From Owenia fusiformis (Eukaryota > Annelida > Polychaeta > Sabellida > Oweniidae), in NCBI GenBank assembly GCA_903813345.2, contig CAIIXF020000001.1, positions 30,493,915-30,557,914 on the forward strand: DNA of 64,000 nucleotides. Reading direction: 5' to 3'. How positions within the stretch are numbered: the first letter of the stretch is position 1; every line of letters starts with the position of its first letter. Of this stretch, positions 24,490 through 46,700 are shown piece by piece. A model generated the notes under the pieces. That model saw only the letters and a program-made list of their open reading frames with translations. It was not told where the DNA came from and did no database searches. Made by a program: the position numbers and the translations under genes.

Positions 24490-25539
24490 TTATAATATAC
24501 TAGTGTTTCGACTAAACGATTCCCTTTTACATTTTCTGCGTCGAAGAAATTTACATAATGCCTGTCGAAAATCCTTTCCTATGAAAAAGTAAAACAGGAA
24601 ATTAATAGATGAGTTGCATGTTAATATTAAATTACCAATTAAGTTTAGGTAGGTACTTCGCACTTTGTCATCATCACGTATAAGATATGAAAGACAAGCA
24701 ACAGTCCAGACTAGTGATGATATAATAAAAACGGACACGATTCCTATCATCTGAAATGTAAAATGTCTCTCCCTTCTCTGATGATGCGTAAGGGATGACA
24801 CTGCCTTAGCTGATTTACGTACGGATTGAATCAGGCGAATATTGAGTCCCATAGTAACAATTACAGGCCCCATTAGTCTGAAAGTAGTGTTTAGGATTAC
24901 ATCATAAAACAGTTTGTAGTCTTTTGAGTTGTATAAAGCCGTTCCATTAAGGCCAAATACATCATCACATGTTCTATTGTTTAAGAACCATCCCTGCTTC
25001 TCGGCCTTGACTTCAAAGATACGAGGAATGCTGAATACAAAAGCAGCCATGGCCAGTAAAACAGCGCAAACATGAGCTGTTGTTTTATTGAAAATCTGCA
25101 AAGCATTGTGTGGTTTACACACATATATATATCTATCCACTGTTACCAGTACAATCATCCACGTTGCCCATATTTGGGTTGATGATACCAACAAAAATAA
25201 TGTTGGTAATATCTGTATCAATCCATTGTTTATGTAAATTTGAAGAGGATAAAAACGTACATGAGTTAACAAGTTGATGATAGCCAGGAATATAACGGTG
25301 AACAGGTAACTTATATCGGCAATGGCTAGGTACTTTAGCACAATAACATGGGTCGTACTTGGTCGTATCTTTGATAATCCCAGAACTGATAATCCATTCC
25401 CAACAGTGCCTAGCAATCCTATCAGTACATGAAGTATATTGGTAACTGCATGCGCCACTAAAGGACTAGTGTTGTTGGTGTTTACTGAGCTGTAAATAGC
25501 ACTCGGGATCAAGCAAGTTGAATTCATCATTCCTTTCAA
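24490..25539 (-). CDS. Class A (rhodopsin-like) peptide-type GPCR, intronless
   Basis: A 349-residue seven-helix receptor, complete with start and stop. Helices by eye: about 31-54, 66-90, 105-140, 153-172, 213-236, 261-286 and 297-320. Class A marks are GN (47-48) in helix 1, LAIAD (71-75) in helix 2, DRY (135-137) after helix 3, NFLFY (313-317) in place of NPxxY in helix 7, and a basic helix 8 (KDFRQALCKFL) and tail. N-terminal sequons (NST at 6, NNT at 22) fit an outside N-terminus. The missing helix-3 cysteine and the INFLFY end recall FMRFamide-receptor-like neuropeptide receptors, but the ligand cannot be told. It lies on the same strand as SYCP2, about 3.1 kb past its last visible exon, so it is downstream of or nested in that gene. 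No UTR introns or promoter are evident. Confidence 0.93.
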   Translation of the reverse strand: MKGMMNSTCLIPSAIYSSVNTNNTSPLVAHAVTNILHVLIGLLGTVGNGLSVLGLSKIRPSTTHVIVLKYLAIADISYLFTVIFLAIINLLTHVRFYPLQIYINNGLIQILPTLFLLVSSTQIWATWMIVLVTVDRYIYVCKPHNALQIFNKTTAHVCAVLLAMAAFVFSIPRIFEVKAEKQGWFLNNRTCDDVFGLNGTALYNSKDYKLFYDVILNTTFRLMGPVIVTMGLNIRLIQSVRKSAKAVSSLTHHQRRERHFTFQMIGIVSVFIISSLVWTVACLSYLIRDDDKVRSTYLNLIGNLILTCNSSINFLFYFFIGKDFRQALCKFLRRRKCKRESFSRNTSIL

Positions 25540-28759: not shown

Positions 28760-31700
28760 CTGAAACAGGAACACTTCCAATGAGTATATTCAATCTTTTG
28801 TATTGTGGGACCCCTAATTTCTAGTTCTTTTCTTGTTATAATACTATGTAATATTAACTTTTTAATTTTCAAACAACATAAGAGAAAGCATAATAACTCT
28901 GATACTATAACTGATGACATTTTGTACATTATGACATCTTCAACATTGCCTGATTAAATGATCACTCTGTGAAGTGCTTTACAAAACACACACAATACAA
29001 ATGATGATATCAATGAGAAGTCGTTAGAAATGAAATAAAATAATGCAAAAATGCTCAGTGACTGATAACAAAAGTCGCTGCATGAACTGAAACTCTATCT
29101 CTATTAGGGAATTAATATGCTTTTTGTCTACAGGGGCTGATGAAATTCACGTGTATTGTGCAGATTCGAGGGACAATTCACGTTACATGCGCCAAGCAAA
29201 AGAAAATATGAGAGGGGTGATGAATAAATCAGCCATTACGGACCACGTCCTTCAGAATAATTGTGTAATGGACTGGAACAATACTACAGTTTTGGACAAT
29301 GACAATAAGAGACTTAAGATGGTTTAAAGAATCTATTTCTATAAAGAAGGAATGAGTTTTTGGTGAATTAATATGACTTAATATTGTTTTTATTTAATTG
29401 TTTTGTAGTGCTTCAGTTCAGTTTTTATACAGTTGAAAACGGATCCAGACAGGATCCGTAACGTCCTGTTTAGTAAAATAAAGGTTGTCAAAAGAAGAAA
29501 AAACATTTTTGTAAGATATGATTTATGTGGCACTCACACAGACATTTCAATTTGAATTCAAAATATTTCAGTTATTGGCCCTTTAAGGTTGAGTCCATAA
29601 AATTCTCCTTTCATAATTTAAGCCTAGAATATTTTCAATAAAATAAGGTCATACAGATCCCATAGTCTTCCTCTGAAAGTGGGCTTTTGGAGGATAGGCG
29701 GATTAACTGATTGAGCAGTCCATCCTCACAGACTTTTTATTCATTAAAATGATGGAAATAATCATCTAATGCATAAAATAAATGACAAAACAATATTAAA
29801 TGATATTTACAAACGGCATAGTGGAAAGGTCATATTCCTACTAATAAGTAATCAGGCGAGTCAGATGTTATTAATAGATTCATTTCCATACCCATCAGAC
29901 AAAACTGACTGAAATCAAATAACTTTTAAGAGGATTGTGAAATAGATTGGTAATTATAAGACTATTTGCTGCTCAAATTAATTTGAAATTGACACTGCCA
30001 TTCAAAATTCCAAGAATTGCATTGTCCTAGATTCTACAAATCTATTGCTCAGCTCATTAATCTTATTGAAGTACAATATTAAAAGAATAGGATTTATATC
30101 TATACTATATATACTTATTTCTTCCTCATTTTATTTATCCGAACTAACTTCTAATATTAACAGTAGCATGATTGAGAGTTTGGAGTAAAGCACAGTTGAA
30201 ATCATTTAAAAGGCTACTGAATATTATTTGAGGTACCATATTTTATATTTGAAAGTATAATCACACAAATACATTTATAGACTTGAATGGTGATTGAACT
30301 AAGTTCTTAAATTCCCATTTCAGTGCAAAGTTGTCCACCTCTCAATTCATCAAAAATCAACAAAATTGCACTTCTCGGGTTAAGCTTACCCTTAATGTTT
30401 TCTGAAGGTCGGCGCCAAATGAGTTGAGGAGACTTGACATGCCTGTTGAGAAGTCTTGATTGATGTCAGGCACCTCATATCTATGGCTCTCTGAGGGGGT
30501 GGATTCTAGAGGACCTCCTTCCCCATCAATATCTTCCTGATCAAAGTCAGACAGGTCAGCAACCTCTACAAAATTAAAAGCTTTTAAGAGCTGTTTCATG
30601 TATTCACGTATCAACGGAATTACTTATCTAACATCCTCTGTTAATCATTTTCCATCATCACAGTCAGGTTTAATAACAAAAATCACCAGATTCTTATTCT
30701 CTCCCATGGACCATACTTAGAAAAATTGAGATAAGTATGAGAGGAACTCTTGATTCTTGTATACTATACCAGTGATTTTTTGAACTAAGTGAAAAAATCT
30801 AATTCAACCTGAAAGAAATGGTCCACAAATTAAAATGGGTCAAAATATCCTAACTTTTCATGATTTACAAAATCCAGTTTTTTATTCTTTGATGTTTATG
30901 AGTACAGACCAATATGGCAGGACAGCATTTTCTTAGTGCCATAATCTAGATATACGCCTCACTTTGTAAAAGCATATTTTCTATGTATGACAACCGGCGT
31001 TAACTCTTATTAGCTTAATTCACAATAACTAGAATTTAATGACAGACTAGGCCTTTTTCTCACTTGCTAATGCAAATAATGACTTGGTAAAAAGGGATTC
31101 ACATTCTTGTTATGATATTTTCTAGCTTGCTTATATTAGTCATAGATCGATGAAAATAGTGTATCAATTTCCTGAATATGGTAAACCCAAGCTGAGAAAA
31201 TAAAGAGCTGAACAATGAATGATTTACTGAACCTTATTTCAGTTGCATTAGAACAAAGAGATCTAAATAAATCAAAAAATAAGCAAAATAAATCCATTAA
31301 AACATGATAAATGCTATTGCTTTGGATTGTAAGGAAGGTGATTATACCATTACCGTGTAGCAATTAAAAATCAGTAGTATTTCATTAAGATGAAAGACAA
31401 ATAACACCACAACACACGGTGTAAACAATATCACATCGTTTATATTAGCCATGTATCAATCTATGAAACCCATTACCAAAATAGTAAGTTAGTTACAGAC
31501 AAGATTCCATGACCAAAATTGGTTCCCAGGTATGGTGTGCCAAGTGAAGATATATCAGAGACCACCTATTACTACAAGATTTTAATAACAATTTTAAAAA
31601 TAGACATATACTGTATTCTTTTTCTCATTTCTTATGACATAAATATATTAAACAACAAGAGACTTCTCCAACTTCTCCAATGGCCAATGGCATTGAAGAT

Positions 31701-40700: not shown

Positions 40701-43700
40701 GTGAGACCAATAAGGAAGATTAAATAGACTGGCTCAATATGAAGAAAAATGGAACTGGAAAAAGAATGAGCCAAATATTCAGGAAGATTAGCAAAGTATA
40801 ATCTGAGTCCTAAAAGACACTGAAAAAATAAGTTCTTGATTTGTGGGCTAAATCTAGCACCTTACTGATCTTCATATCTACAATTAAGATCTGGGGAAAG
40901 TACAAGCAGATTTTCCAATTCACCTTTTCTTAATACCGATTAAGTCAGTTTTTCTTCATCTTACTTATTTTTGCTATGATACTTCAAATATTAAATTTTT
41001 CTGGAAATAATTTCTGCCCTATGTGACTCTGACAGACTGGATAGTAAATTTGTAGCATGACTAAAAATATTATCTTGACATTTGTGTATTTTCATTGAGA
41101 CCCCTTAGGTCTGTCAACATTTCTTATTTAGAAACCCCTCAAGATTTAATAGGTGTGAAAATCCCCATCTTAAACCTATGGGGGAAAAACAAGGAAGTAT
41201 AAATTTGTTCCTCCGCGAACTGCATTGCAGTGGGAAATATTTTGACCTTATTAGGAAAGATTTTCGCGTCTCCTCTTTTGAAGAGGGAACAACGATCTGC
41301 TCAATTATTTATCCCTTTTCAGGAACAATTGCAAAAGGGATTTCTGCATTTCCTGCAAAGATTTATTGAAACCTTTGCATATATATGGATATTTTTGGCC
41401 CACCCTGTAGATTTTACTTAAACATACCCCTGTCTTTGTCTGGACTCTTAGAATTAGGTTGAGAAGATTTTTCCAGTGGTTTGGATTGCAGAAGACTAGT
41501 GCTTCGACCTGATGAAGTGTTGCTACTTGCAGTATGTTGCGTGCTGGAGGTTGTTGTTGGCATCTGGATACAAGGATTCACTACTACATGTATGATATAC
41601 TACAGATATGTTCTTATTCAAGCTAAAAAGATGGCATACTAGTCTTATAATCTATAATATGGTAATTTCTGATTTGAATTGTTATTCATATATCAGCAAA
41701 ATGTGGTGAGATTTATAAATGAAAAACAAACCTCAATATTTCTGTTATATCTAGCTGATATAGCCATTGGTTGTAAAGGCATCGATACTTTTGGTTGTCT
41801 TGGGCATGGTTTTCCAACCTGAATTGTTTAAGGTTAAATTTCTAATGTTATTGGTATGTATACATTAGAAAGTATGACAAAATATAACATTTTGAGAACA
41901 ATAACTTTCCTGTCTACCTACAGGTAACTGATACTTTGGGCAGAAATGATGTCATTGCAATCAAAATAATAATTAATACACCTCTATCTTCACTTCAAAA
42001 TATTTGGGATTGCTCAAATTCAAAATAATATAACCATTAAGATTTATTTGAGTGAAATATATTTTCATCTCTGGGGACGAGAACCTTATTGGTTTCATAC
42101 TGTTATTTACAAGATTTTTTAATTCTTATTTAAATTCAAACCTTAGTAGTAAGTTTATCAGCAATTCTCTTGGCTAGGTCATCACAAAGATTTCCCATAT
42201 CAGTCTGTTCATCAGCAATAGAACTTGGAATCTAGAAGAAATCAGACATAAACAGTAACCTTTAGAATAGAATACACCTGCAAAACACACATTTCAACGA
42301 CATAGTTCTGAACAATAAATTGGTTTATAATATTCCAAAGCAATTTTTAAATCAATAATTATGTTAATCCTCTCATTATTATCAATTTAATTTATAGGTA
42401 AGATGACCTCTAATTAATAAATGAATATTCTATTCTTCCACACTTATTATCATGGGATTTCAGGATCCCTTAAAAGCCAATGATATTATGTATGAGTACA
42501 TGCCTGGTAGTCATCTTCATTTTCCGTAGTTTTCAAGTTCACATGAATGGACTGGATTGACCTGGATACCTTTTGACCAATCTGAAGACAAAACTAATCT
42601 TTAGAAATAAGATCAACGATTAAATGTGTAAAAGACATTCAAGGCAATGCCTATAAATCAGAATTTGCATTACAATATAATAATAATCATGTGGCAATTT
42701 CTTGTATGCTAAAAAGCTCATTATAACAGCTATTGCTTGGTACATTGAAGAATGAAGATATTTCACCAATATCACTATGGCAGCATGGGGGCTATAAAAG
42801 AAACAGTCCAAAAGAAAAAACAAAAAGCATAAACATGTATTGCACTCAATTCATAGGATCTATGTATTCATTCATTGTATAAAAGCTTAAAATTAAAATC
42901 AGTCAGGTTCATTGTTCAAGTATAATTCTGAGATACCCCATGTCATTTAAAAAATCTGTACTAACAGATGTACCATATTCCCTGGGATTAGCACACGGGC
43001 ATATAGAAAATTCAAAAATACCTCCTTTAGACCATTCTAATAAACACCGATACATGGAAGAAGTCAAAGGCTCATGTAGGGAAACTTTCCTTGGAAAGAA
43101 TGGATTATTTGCAACATCAGAACGAAATAACAACATATTTTTACAATACTGATATGGATTGATACTGGAGAGTTTACGGTAAATATAGCTAAAATGAACC
43201 AAGAATCTTAACTAAATAATATTGAAAATATCCCCCGTAGAGCCCCACAAATTTAAGGAATTGTTTTTCCTGGTTATCTTCATTATTTCCACAAGAGACT
43301 GTTGGATTATCCATCTAAAGTTATATTTATGTGCAAATGGGCAAGGTTAATAATTTGAAGGATATCACTCCATCGCTTCTCAATTTTCAAGATTGGCACT
43401 ATCACGCCTTACCATCGCGTAAGCAGGCGTCACCGTACAGCGTCAAAAAATAGCGGAGTACAGTTTTCTGTACGGTAACGCAAATTAAACTGCTTTGAAG
43501 CAAAAACTATGACAAGGGTTTAAAAAAAATTAATTTGATGAAAACTAATACGATTTCATGTGAAATAAAAACAGCATTCTCTTAGAAATGGTTTTAACTA
43601 ACTGATTATGATAAACGTTTTACGAGCACTGTTCGGATTTTTTCTGAGTGAATCGGCCCACATAATCGACCCAAGTGAAAAAAGGTTGTTTTTTCACATT

Positions 43701-46700
43701 TCGTTTGGTTATTATTTTCCCTGCCGTCTGAGAGTATGGATTATTTTTTTGAGAAAACGTATTTATTGACTACACATTTTAGAACGGGCGAAGATTCAGC
43801 AAACAACCATGCATTATGTATATTTAAAAAAGATCAAATTTGAACGGTGACGCACCAGCTGTACGGTGACGCCATGCTTTGATGAACTAAATGAGACTAA
43901 GATTGTATGAAATGGAAACTCTGGAGTATGATCATTTGTTCATATATAGCGCCGTTACATACATAACGGAAGGTTACTGGAAATGTATGATACGGTAAAG
44001 ATAATGAAACCAAAAACTCTCTTGTTGCTATGTTATTGATGTTTTAAAACAAGGGATGTCACAAGTAAATCTCATCTTGCATGTGTGACTTTTTAGGATG
44101 AAAGATGCAATATATTGCATGGGGTAAAGATGGCTGTGTAGGCTATCTTTGTTAGTCAAATGAGAAAAGTCTGGTTTAGTTCAAATGATACCAAAGCATT
44201 ACGTCAACTTTGAAATAGTTAATTCCATGAAAACTAAAATTATCGAAATTGATACTTCCTGTCCGCCATCTTAAATGCGAAGGTGACGGCTGTAACCTTC
44301 GCTTGATACTTACCAGTGACAATTTACATGTAGATCTGACGCTTCTTTACCTCTTGTTCGAACAGTAAGCTTAGAGCTCTTCATAAAATCTAAGGAAGCG
44401 TCACCGTACAGCTGATGCGTCACCGTACAGTTCTGATCTTTTTTGAATAAATACACTGAATGATTTTTTGCCGAATATTCATCTGTTCTAAAATGTGTAG
44501 ATAACAAATACATATTCTCATAAAAATAATCCATACTCTCAGACGACAGGGAAAATAATAACCAAACGAAAAGTGAAAAAAAAAAAAATTTCTCTCGAGT
44601 CGATTATGTGGGCCGATCCAGTCAGAAAAAATCCGAGCAGTGCTCGAAAAACTTTTGTCATAATTAGAAAGTTAAAACCATTCTTAAGAGAATGCTGTTT
44701 TTATTACACCCGAAATCGTATTTATTTACGTCTAATTAATCTTTTTAAAACCCTCATTATAGTTTTTGCTTCAACTAAGTTAAATTTCGTCACCGTACAG
44801 AAAACTGTACTACTGTATTTTTTGACGCTGTACGGTGACGCCTGCTTACGCGATGGTTAGGCGTGACTATTTCATGAAATAAAAACATAAATGCCACATT
44901 AAAAGTGATTTACTGGAGTTATGTATGTGTGCAGGTTTACATTCTAAATACATTTCAAAATTTTATTTGATGATTCAATTAAGTATTTAAACAGAAAAAA
45001 AAATGTAACACATGCAATGACCTAAACTGAAATACAATGTACCAGTATGGTTAAACAAAACCACATACAAGAATTTGGCCCTGACATGAATAATATGCAA
45101 AACTGATGGTTGCATGCAGTTAAAAAACATTCAATATTTCATCAACAGTCCCATATAACAAAAGAAATTGAATGCATAATCATACAGCAATCACATTTCA
45201 CAAAACGTTTTACAATTGACAACTAATAAATGTTAATTCATGTATTTTATCATATAATAACAATAAATAATAAAAACTATTATTGGAACCCATATTTTTT
45301 AATAAGAATTGTACTTTTAAACAAGGTCATCAACCTAATAAAGGAAACACTAACATTTAAAACAACCACAAAAGCCAAAAGTATATAGGTCACATGATCT
45401 AGTTCCAAGAGAAAAAGTGACTCAAGCTTGACTTTTTGGATAAATCTCTATAAGGACAAAAACTATTTTGCAATAATTTATTTGTGAGCAAACATGCTCA
45501 CTTAGACATATTAAAGAGAAGATCTTTACACAAAATATCCGCATATTTTTTTTGTTTATCCAGTCTTAAGCAACCTAGAATAGATCAGCAATGAAAGGAT
45601 ATTGATTCAAACAGGTTAAAAGCCCCATATGAAAAGACCAGTGTAAAGTTTGAAAATATAGTTTAAGCACTCAAATATCATAAGTGAGTTTAAGCTTGCA
45701 TATAAAATCGAATCGCCAACCTATACGTATGACCAATCGCCCATACAAATACATCGCTTAAATAACTAGCGTTCGCGTTTAGGTTGTGAAAAAAAGTGGT
45801 AGCTTAAACTCTCTATTTTTCATGACCTATTAAACCATTTGAGACATTTTTTAAAAAATTCATTTTTGAATATTTCTTATATTTTTATATATTTGAATTT
45901 CCCTCCATTTTAAAAACAATTAGATCATCAAATATGACACTTATCACTATTTTCTCTACTCCTTTAAATAGATCAGCCAAAAAATCATATCATTTCAACT
46001 ACTCAATCTATGATTTTATGCATATATAAACTTTTAAAGCCTTTTCAAACTTTGATGTCACAATGATATGCTGTGATGTCACTCAGGTGGTAAAATATTC
46101 TTTGAAATATTATCAATTTTTTATAAAGCAATATTGTTGGCTTATCTCTAGGTTGAAAATAAATTTTCATCATGTTTTGAAAATATCTATGTAAATATAT
46201 ATAAATGGCCACCTTTGTGTACTTTTCTTGCATTTTCAAACAATTTTCTTTATTTTTAAACAAAATAGGTAAGGATGTCTGTTATGCAATGGTGTAAATT
46301 ATAACTTACAATGCATTTGCATGACAACTAATATGTTATTTGAAATATATAATTTTTTTGAATATAAAACCCTTCAAAATCAAGTTTTAAGTTTTAACCA
46401 CTTTGGACTTATAGGGACTTATTGGGACTTTGGACCTATAGGGCTATAATTATAAAAAAGTGATCTGAACCTTTTCTTTTTGTAAGAAAAACTGCGATTT
46501 TTATTTTTTTTAAATTAGCTGTAACAAACACCTATTATTAAGTACTTTACACCAAGGCATAATACAGTATATACATTCTAATCACTTTTATGCTAAAGAA
46601 ATTGGATAATTGTTTGAAAAATATATGCACAAACAAGTTGTTCAAAGAAAGTACTTTGTAAAGTTTTAGTTCTCAATGAAACCAATGACACAAAATATGA

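Follow-up and report, generated by a model that had tools for sequence, protein, structure and literature searches.

DNA transposons with long inverted arms are known from Drosophila, where Galileo and other Foldback-like elements (P superfamily or unassigned) combine such arms with repeated sites inside them and many nonautonomous copies. Here we describe an element with this architecture in a stretch of 64,000 nucleotides from the annelid Owenia fusiformis (contig CAIIXF020000001.1, positions 30,493,915 to 30,557,914, forward strand), hereafter the window. The element lies at positions 43403..44865 of the window. Galileo differs in its 7-bp duplication, its end, its known transposase and its arms of 18 to 1250 bp, according to PMC3573991, and the arms of the classical Foldback are tandem repeats, whereas those of the window element are not. 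The Transib and RAG-like (RAGL, ProtoRAG) transposons have CAC ends and a 5-bp duplication in common with it but differ in the sequence after CAC, and the element has an AT-rich target, long arms and no linked transposase that we could find. Miniature inverted-repeat transposable elements (MITEs), including those of the CMC group, likewise have no recognised coding capacity, a short conserved end and copies of similar length; those described in PMC6004678 measure 116-422 bp, whereas the present element is 1.46 kb long with 470-bp arms. A literature search over titles and abstract openings, with Repbase outside its reach, returned no description of the family. A repeat library of Owenia has been published (PMC9977687), and the element may sit unnamed in it.

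The element is a foldback-type, nonautonomous DNA transposon with long terminal inverted repeats (TIRs), and it appears to represent a new, young family of a known kind, the nonautonomous long-armed DNA transposons. More precisely, we read it as a nonautonomous DNA transposon whose long terminal arms are imperfect inverted repeats and which is moved in trans, cut before CAC and flanked by a 5-bp duplication, and we assign this reading a probability of about 0.87. The features of the window copy are as follows.

43398..43402, no strand, left target duplication ACTAT (window sequence and end-pair table)
43403..44865, no strand, whole nonautonomous element of 1463 bp, subfamily A, orientation arbitrary (ends, arms, genome copies)
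43403..43872, plus strand, left arm of about 470 bp (inverted blocks, arm comparison)
43403..43440, plus strand, left 38-nt end, CACGCCTTACCATCGCGTAAGCAGG plus word, with T at position 8 (genome end search)
43428..43440, plus strand, word 1, exact CGTCACCGTACAG (word search)
43468..43480, minus strand, word 2, one mismatch, converging on word 1 (word search)
43840..43852, minus strand, word 3, two mismatches (word search)
43859..43871, minus strand, word 4, exact (word search)
43873..44397, no strand, central region (frame listing, Pfam)
44398..44865, minus strand, right arm (inverted blocks, arm comparison)
44399..44411, plus strand, word 5, exact (word search)
44418..44430, plus strand, word 6, exact (word search)
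44788..44800, plus strand, word 7, exact (word search)
44828..44840, minus strand, word 8, exact (word search)
44828..44865, minus strand, right 38-nt end, CACGCCTAACC..., with A at position 8 (genome end search)
44866..44870, no strand, right target duplication ACTAT (window sequence and end-pair table)

The left ACTAT is followed by CACGCCTTACCATCG from 43403, and on the right side CGATGGTTAGGCGTG closes at 44865, directly before the second ACTAT. The termini are CAC...GTG, with CACGCC as the outermost letters on the left and GGCGTG on the right. The original prediction, made from the letters of this DNA, of a 1.46-kb element with CAC ends, ACTAT on both sides and inverted arms of about 470 bases is thus borne out at exactly these bounds. 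The arms pair over three ungapped blocks of 87, 212 and 187 nt, which are 92% (43402-43488 with 44780-44866), 83% (43482-43693 with 44576-44787) and 86% (43686-43872 with 44398-44584) complementary. They make up most of the length of the element, which is the foldback-type feature, and a single strand is predicted to form one long hairpin in a folding calculation that had no shuffle control at such length. No tandem-repeat array was found within the element, and each arm holds only four separated words. When up to 2 mismatches are allowed, the word CGTCACCGTACAG has eight sites in the 64-kb window, and every one of them lies within the element; 100 shuffles of the window gave a mean of 0.16 and a maximum of 2. 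The eightfold word that had been predicted is therefore real, with six exact sites and two imperfect ones. Its predicted setting in mirrored pairs holds for the pairing at the outer and inner ends of the arms and has to be refined for the orientation: the words at each outer end form a converging pair 27 bp apart, and those at each inner end form a direct pair, 19 bp from start to start.

Genome searches covered the 498-Mb assembly in 525 contigs, of which C1 contains the window. The 38-nt end gave 137 + 136 matches at up to 3 mismatches, and its reversed control gave 0 + 0. A search with the element itself gave at least 33 matches that span positions 1-1463, among the best 40 of 1780 first-look candidates. 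Among the end matches listed, 177 of the 273 could be typed by place as 82 left-type and 95 right-type ends, and most copies carry CACGCCTTACC on the left end and CACGCCTAACC on the right end. The typed ends form 52 converging pairs within 20 kb; 51 of these join one left-type to one right-type end, and the single left-left pair, on contig C6, is two nested copies (L019). Fixed inverted ends and many dispersed copies, as in a nonautonomous TIR DNA transposon (MITE-like), are thus both present. The original prediction had called for further copies in the same genome and would have been contradicted by other ends or another duplication length; the copies have the same ends, and 5 bp fits best. 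We conclude that the family is dispersed over the genome and that its members are real transposon copies. A further copy (L025, C1:30485267-30486978) lies outside the window, about 7 kb ahead of its first position.

The duplication table holds 43 distinct end pairs, including a related mini-element in locus L058. Identical 5-bp flanks occur in 35 of these pairs, while duplications of 3, 4, 6, 7 and 8 bp fit 2, 1, 1, 0 and 0 pairs, respectively, in line with the predicted 5-bp length. Of the eight non-identical pairs, three join ends that do not belong together, in loci where elements are nested (two in L019 and one in L032). The duplicated sequences vary and include ACTAT, TACAA, TATAT, AAAGA, CCTTT and others. 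At the 35 sites with identical flanks, a T four bases outside the left flank, mirrored by A on the right, was counted in 44/70, a G or C three bases outside on both sides also in 44/70, and A or T at duplication positions 1, 3 and 5 in 93/105. Each bias has p < 1e-6 against window composition, values that are optimistic because the positions were chosen after the table was seen. The resulting target consensus is roughly T-S-N-N-[WNWNW]-N-N-S-A, AT-rich and weakly palindromic. One copy, L021, has both ends complete and unlike flanks (TCTAT and AAGAT), which makes it a candidate for exchange between copies; chimeric copies have been reported for Galileo (PMC3573991).

As a test for empty sites, the two flanks of each of 35 copies were fused around a single duplication, and the joins were compared with a limited set of sequence. 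Seven joins match across the junction, and three of them are clear empty sites elsewhere. The join of L019, where one copy is inserted in another copy, aligns without gaps at 115/120 to uninterrupted sequence with a single TTTTA, and the uninterrupted counterparts are many copies, each with one TTTTA. The L002 join matches L036:3597-3474 at 89%, and the L011 join matches the window repeat 29349-29468 (as 29468-29349) at 80%. Less weight attaches to the joins of L018, L023, L035 and L047, whose matches are to repeats within the respective locus. For the remaining 28 of the 35 joins, no cross-junction match was found within the limited sequence compared.

The copies fall into subfamilies, compared here by pairwise identities in which gaps are ignored. 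Within subfamily A, the eight copies that were aligned are identical at 98.4-99.5% of sites (0.5-1.6% different), eight copies of subfamily B are 96.5-98.6% alike among themselves and 95.4-97.0% alike to A, and three copies of subfamily C are 93.7-94.5% alike; in the three C copies the position-8 base is swapped relative to the arms. L045 and L019 are 98.5% alike mutually and 92-93% alike to A and B. In the window element, 402/472 sites are the same in both arms. Since the arms are about 15% apart and the A copies differ by only 0.5-1.6%, the arms diverged before the A and B copies spread. The simplest account is that the copies descend from a single element, or from a few, whose arms had diverged beforehand. 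Bases diagnostic of one side (68 sites) are kept relative to the core in 27/29 copies, and inversion of the core through recombination between the arms is not seen in these 27.

Comparison of the arms with each other also bears on the ends and the words. In the window copy, the 25-nt ends and the four words agree at 73/77 sites and the rest of the arms at 329/395 (p = 0.008); for the C consensus, the figures are 76/77 and 346/393 (p = 0.0018). The likeness of the words to recombinase binding sites, pointed out in the original prediction, gains support from this better conservation. Support for a constraint on ends and words is present but modest, as judged from such sequence comparisons. The long arms of Galileo contain binding sites for a THAP domain (PMC3688188), and by analogy with these sites the words may bind the transposase.

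The outermost part of the element is shared more widely. A search for CACGCCTWACCATCG plus five excluded positions, which bar the spacer of the main family, gave 46 matches at up to 1 mismatch versus 2 in the control, and the exact 15 nt are present in 38 of the 46. Some of these ends are far ends of main-family copies, as judged by coordinates. Five of the 46 were sampled for 300 bp, and two are diverged relatives: L117 is core sequence of the family at 80%, and L118 resembles the arms at 71%. The L115 sample has no match in the sequence compared, and the matches of L116 and L119 lie entirely outside the element. Among the parts seen, the terminal 15 nt are shared most widely. The mini-relative at L058:1501-1860 is reduced to ends and words within TTAAA flanks and is 360 bp long, or 127 bp if a second left end at 1734 is taken; it adjoins sequence that by eye looks G-protein-coupled receptor (GPCR)-coding.

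The window copy itself appears unable to encode a transposase, as had been predicted. Its longest stop-to-stop frame is 119 codons, and the three arm frames (119-120 codons) have no Pfam match. Paired copies 1.7-14.9 kb in length contain additional DNA within an arm or the core, and some of them belong to subfamily C with a longer core. These long copies were rejected as autonomous ones, since their frames of at least 75 codons, judged by eye, include no recognisable transposase. Ten frames from eight long loci and two partial ones gave a single Pfam match, to the reverse-transcriptase-associated zf-RVT at E 0.036, below the cut-off, and no transposase. Likewise, no transposase was recognised in the copies examined, a sample in which a decayed or intron-split gene could escape. 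Inserts in L017 and L020 resemble each other in their CTCCAGAT-type ends and occupy element positions 310-312 and 1154-1156, which correspond to each other in the two arms, as though the same target had been offered twice.

The original prediction had also called for an autonomous relative with these ends in the same genome, and none turned up among the ends examined. Among the 177 typed ends listed, 73 have no partner, and 21 of these were assigned by eye to known copies or loci. Of the 52 that remained, 20 were sampled over about 1.66 kb, one over 1.66 kb, and 31 over 301 bp at 480-780 bp inward. The 301-bp samples match the element in 21 cases (20 in the core and one in an arm), and the ten others contain other repeats, single reverse-transcriptase-like and Penelope-like frames, or nothing recognisable. 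The frame in L085 is reverse-transcriptase-like by eye, with no Pfam match, and the L080 sequence is Penelope-like by eye; L042, L048, L049 (with an N run) and L073 likewise pass into other DNA. Related ends lacking the 10-bp spacer (L058, L061/L071, L068, L069 and L070) did not lead to a transposase either, and L071 as a DNA query recovered mainly an inserted repeat (query 751-1707).

Several transposase groups are present elsewhere in the genome. The RAG1 Pfam model (PF12940) found nothing at E 0.001, a result that cannot show absence because none of 14 control genomes matched either. At relaxed thresholds, it pointed to three places at E 1.1-1.2 with near-identical sequences, whose open frames are 729, 726 and, broken, 359 codons.

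C8:5760491, strand not stated, RAG1-related transposase L105 (RAG1 profile search)
C4:30069679, strand not stated, RAG1-related transposase L106 (RAG1 profile search)
C1:15860493, strand not stated, RAG1-related transposase L107 (RAG1 profile search)

The L107 protein matches PF12940 at E = 0.0013, below the cut-off, and chains of the Protein Data Bank at E 0.00045 and worse over two regions. Its transposon has the ends CATATCGAGATTTT, unlike those of the element, and no duplication was recognised at the one copy of this group with both flanks seen. Used as a query, L107 recovered DUF1280 transposases as a large group (including L110-L114), and many of these have long open frames. DUF1280 is above the cut-off in four of five proteins tested and zf-AD in one of three N-terminal frames (L110), while an N-terminal frame in L112 resembles the RAG1 importin-binding region at E 0.00012, narrowly missing the cut-off. 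Judged by how PMC4411706 describes the Chapa domain, these DUF1280 transposases may be Chapaev-like. Tests of proximity cover the 223 listed ends, and 71 RAG1-related or CMC places were merged by hand from the search rows. One of the 71, L107, is closer than 20 kb to a listed end, at a distance of 4.6 kb from a copy. We treated it as a chance neighbour and not as the cognate enzyme, because about 0.3 pairs within 5 kb are expected from 71 x 223 places and because it has ends of its own. Transposases of the hAT and CMC/DUF1280 types are present in the genome, and by proximity to the listed ends none could be either linked to the element or dismissed; the searches did not extend to P transposases.

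The CA...TG ends and a duplication within 2-5 bp favour the CMCT group (EnSpm, Mirage, Chapaev, Transib and relatives) over the others, at a confidence perhaps a little short of even; according to PMC12730594, CMCT members have CA..TG ends in most cases and duplications of 2-5 bp. Within it, the Transib/RAG type named in the original prediction was not confirmed. A nonautonomous element of this type agrees in CAC and in the 5-bp length, and RAG1-related transposases exist in the genome. However, GCCTWACC does not agree: CACGCCTWACC differs from the protostome RAG-like consensus CACTWMCAAAC given in PMC7204232, the duplications are AT-rich, and the RAG1-related transposon examined has the other ends given above. 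No Transib or RAG1L transposase was found between such ends in searches that used no Transib protein query and the weak PF12940 model. The assignment is thus not established, given the misfit after CAC and the lack of a transposase between such ends, and we hold it to be unlikely. Equally doubtful is a Chapaev/CMC-type element moved by the intact DUF1280 transposases, whose many long frames, with zf-AD in one and the importin-binding-like match in another, would suit it, as would the ends and duplication length of the element, which are of the CMCT kind. Against this, five DUF1280 stretches (3.0-3.3 kb, short of both transposon ends) contain no word at up to 3 mismatches and a single end-like match (4 mismatches), inside the coding frame of L112, and no DUF1280 place lies within 20 kb of the listed ends.

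Outside this group, the ends speak against a hAT5-type element (a hAT with 5-bp duplications), since hAT ends are of the CAG/TAG type, not CAC. Dimerisation domains of hAT are common in the genome (at least 146 matches, among the best 150 of 182 candidates), but none of these places lies within 31 kb of the 223 listed ends. Families of hAT5 do make 5-bp duplications (PMC12730594), and we consider this origin improbable. Still less probable is a P-superfamily, Galileo-like element, which would explain the same architecture of long arms, several internal transposase-binding sites and a conserved end of about 40 bp (PMC3688188) but makes 7-bp duplications (PMC3573991), a length that fits 0/43 pairs here. 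A large inverted repeat could also be an immobile segmental or palindromic duplication, an explanation that the dispersed copies with fixed ends, the duplications and the empty sites refute. It is also conceivable, at no better odds than the Transib/RAG assignment, that CACGCCTWACCATCG marks a lineage moved by an undescribed transposase, with CAC...GTG ends, 5-bp AT-rich palindromic targets and multiple CGTCACCGTACAG words, either as a branch beside Transib/RAG and Chapaev in CMCT or outside CMCT.

For the nonautonomous transposon moved in trans, the following mechanism can be proposed. A transposase supplied by another element, presumably a DDE enzyme, would bind the 13-bp words near and inside each arm, and the bound transposase would pair both ends. 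It would cut exactly before CAC at each end. The excised DNA would then enter an AT-rich, weakly palindromic target at a staggered break, and gap filling would leave the 5-bp duplication. The movement would thus be of the cut-and-paste type and probably takes place in trans.

Some observations count against this reading. No autonomous partner was found, and for this reason movement in trans is only what we infer. Five of the 40 real end pairs lack identical flanks: those of L031, L033 and L040 show a small indel difference by eye, and those of L021 and L022, also by eye, do not fit. The target consensus was derived from 35 sites, a number that includes the related mini-element, at positions picked post hoc. 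The conservation test has few sites; when the same arm is compared between subfamilies, ends and words have no excess over the rest (p 0.24-0.48) and are slightly less alike than the rest in two of three comparisons, and against the distant L060 p is 0.07 in one comparison and 0.46 in the other, where the words are less alike than the rest. The right arm of L045 and L019 (2/29 copies) is of mixed type, which leaves room for past exchange between the arms or for an older variant.

Elsewhere in the window, an intact frame of 349 amino acids at 24490-25539 (minus strand) looks neuropeptide-GPCR-like by eye.

What the family means depends on its enzyme. If the enzyme is hAT- or P-like, this is an ordinary though neat long-arm element with repeated binding sites. 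If it is near RAG1/Transib, the family would bring to the ancestral group of V(D)J recombination a lineage that differs in its end sequence and target preference. The family is young, with 98.4-99.5% identity among the aligned A copies, and well defined, and its ends are an exact probe for the transposase.

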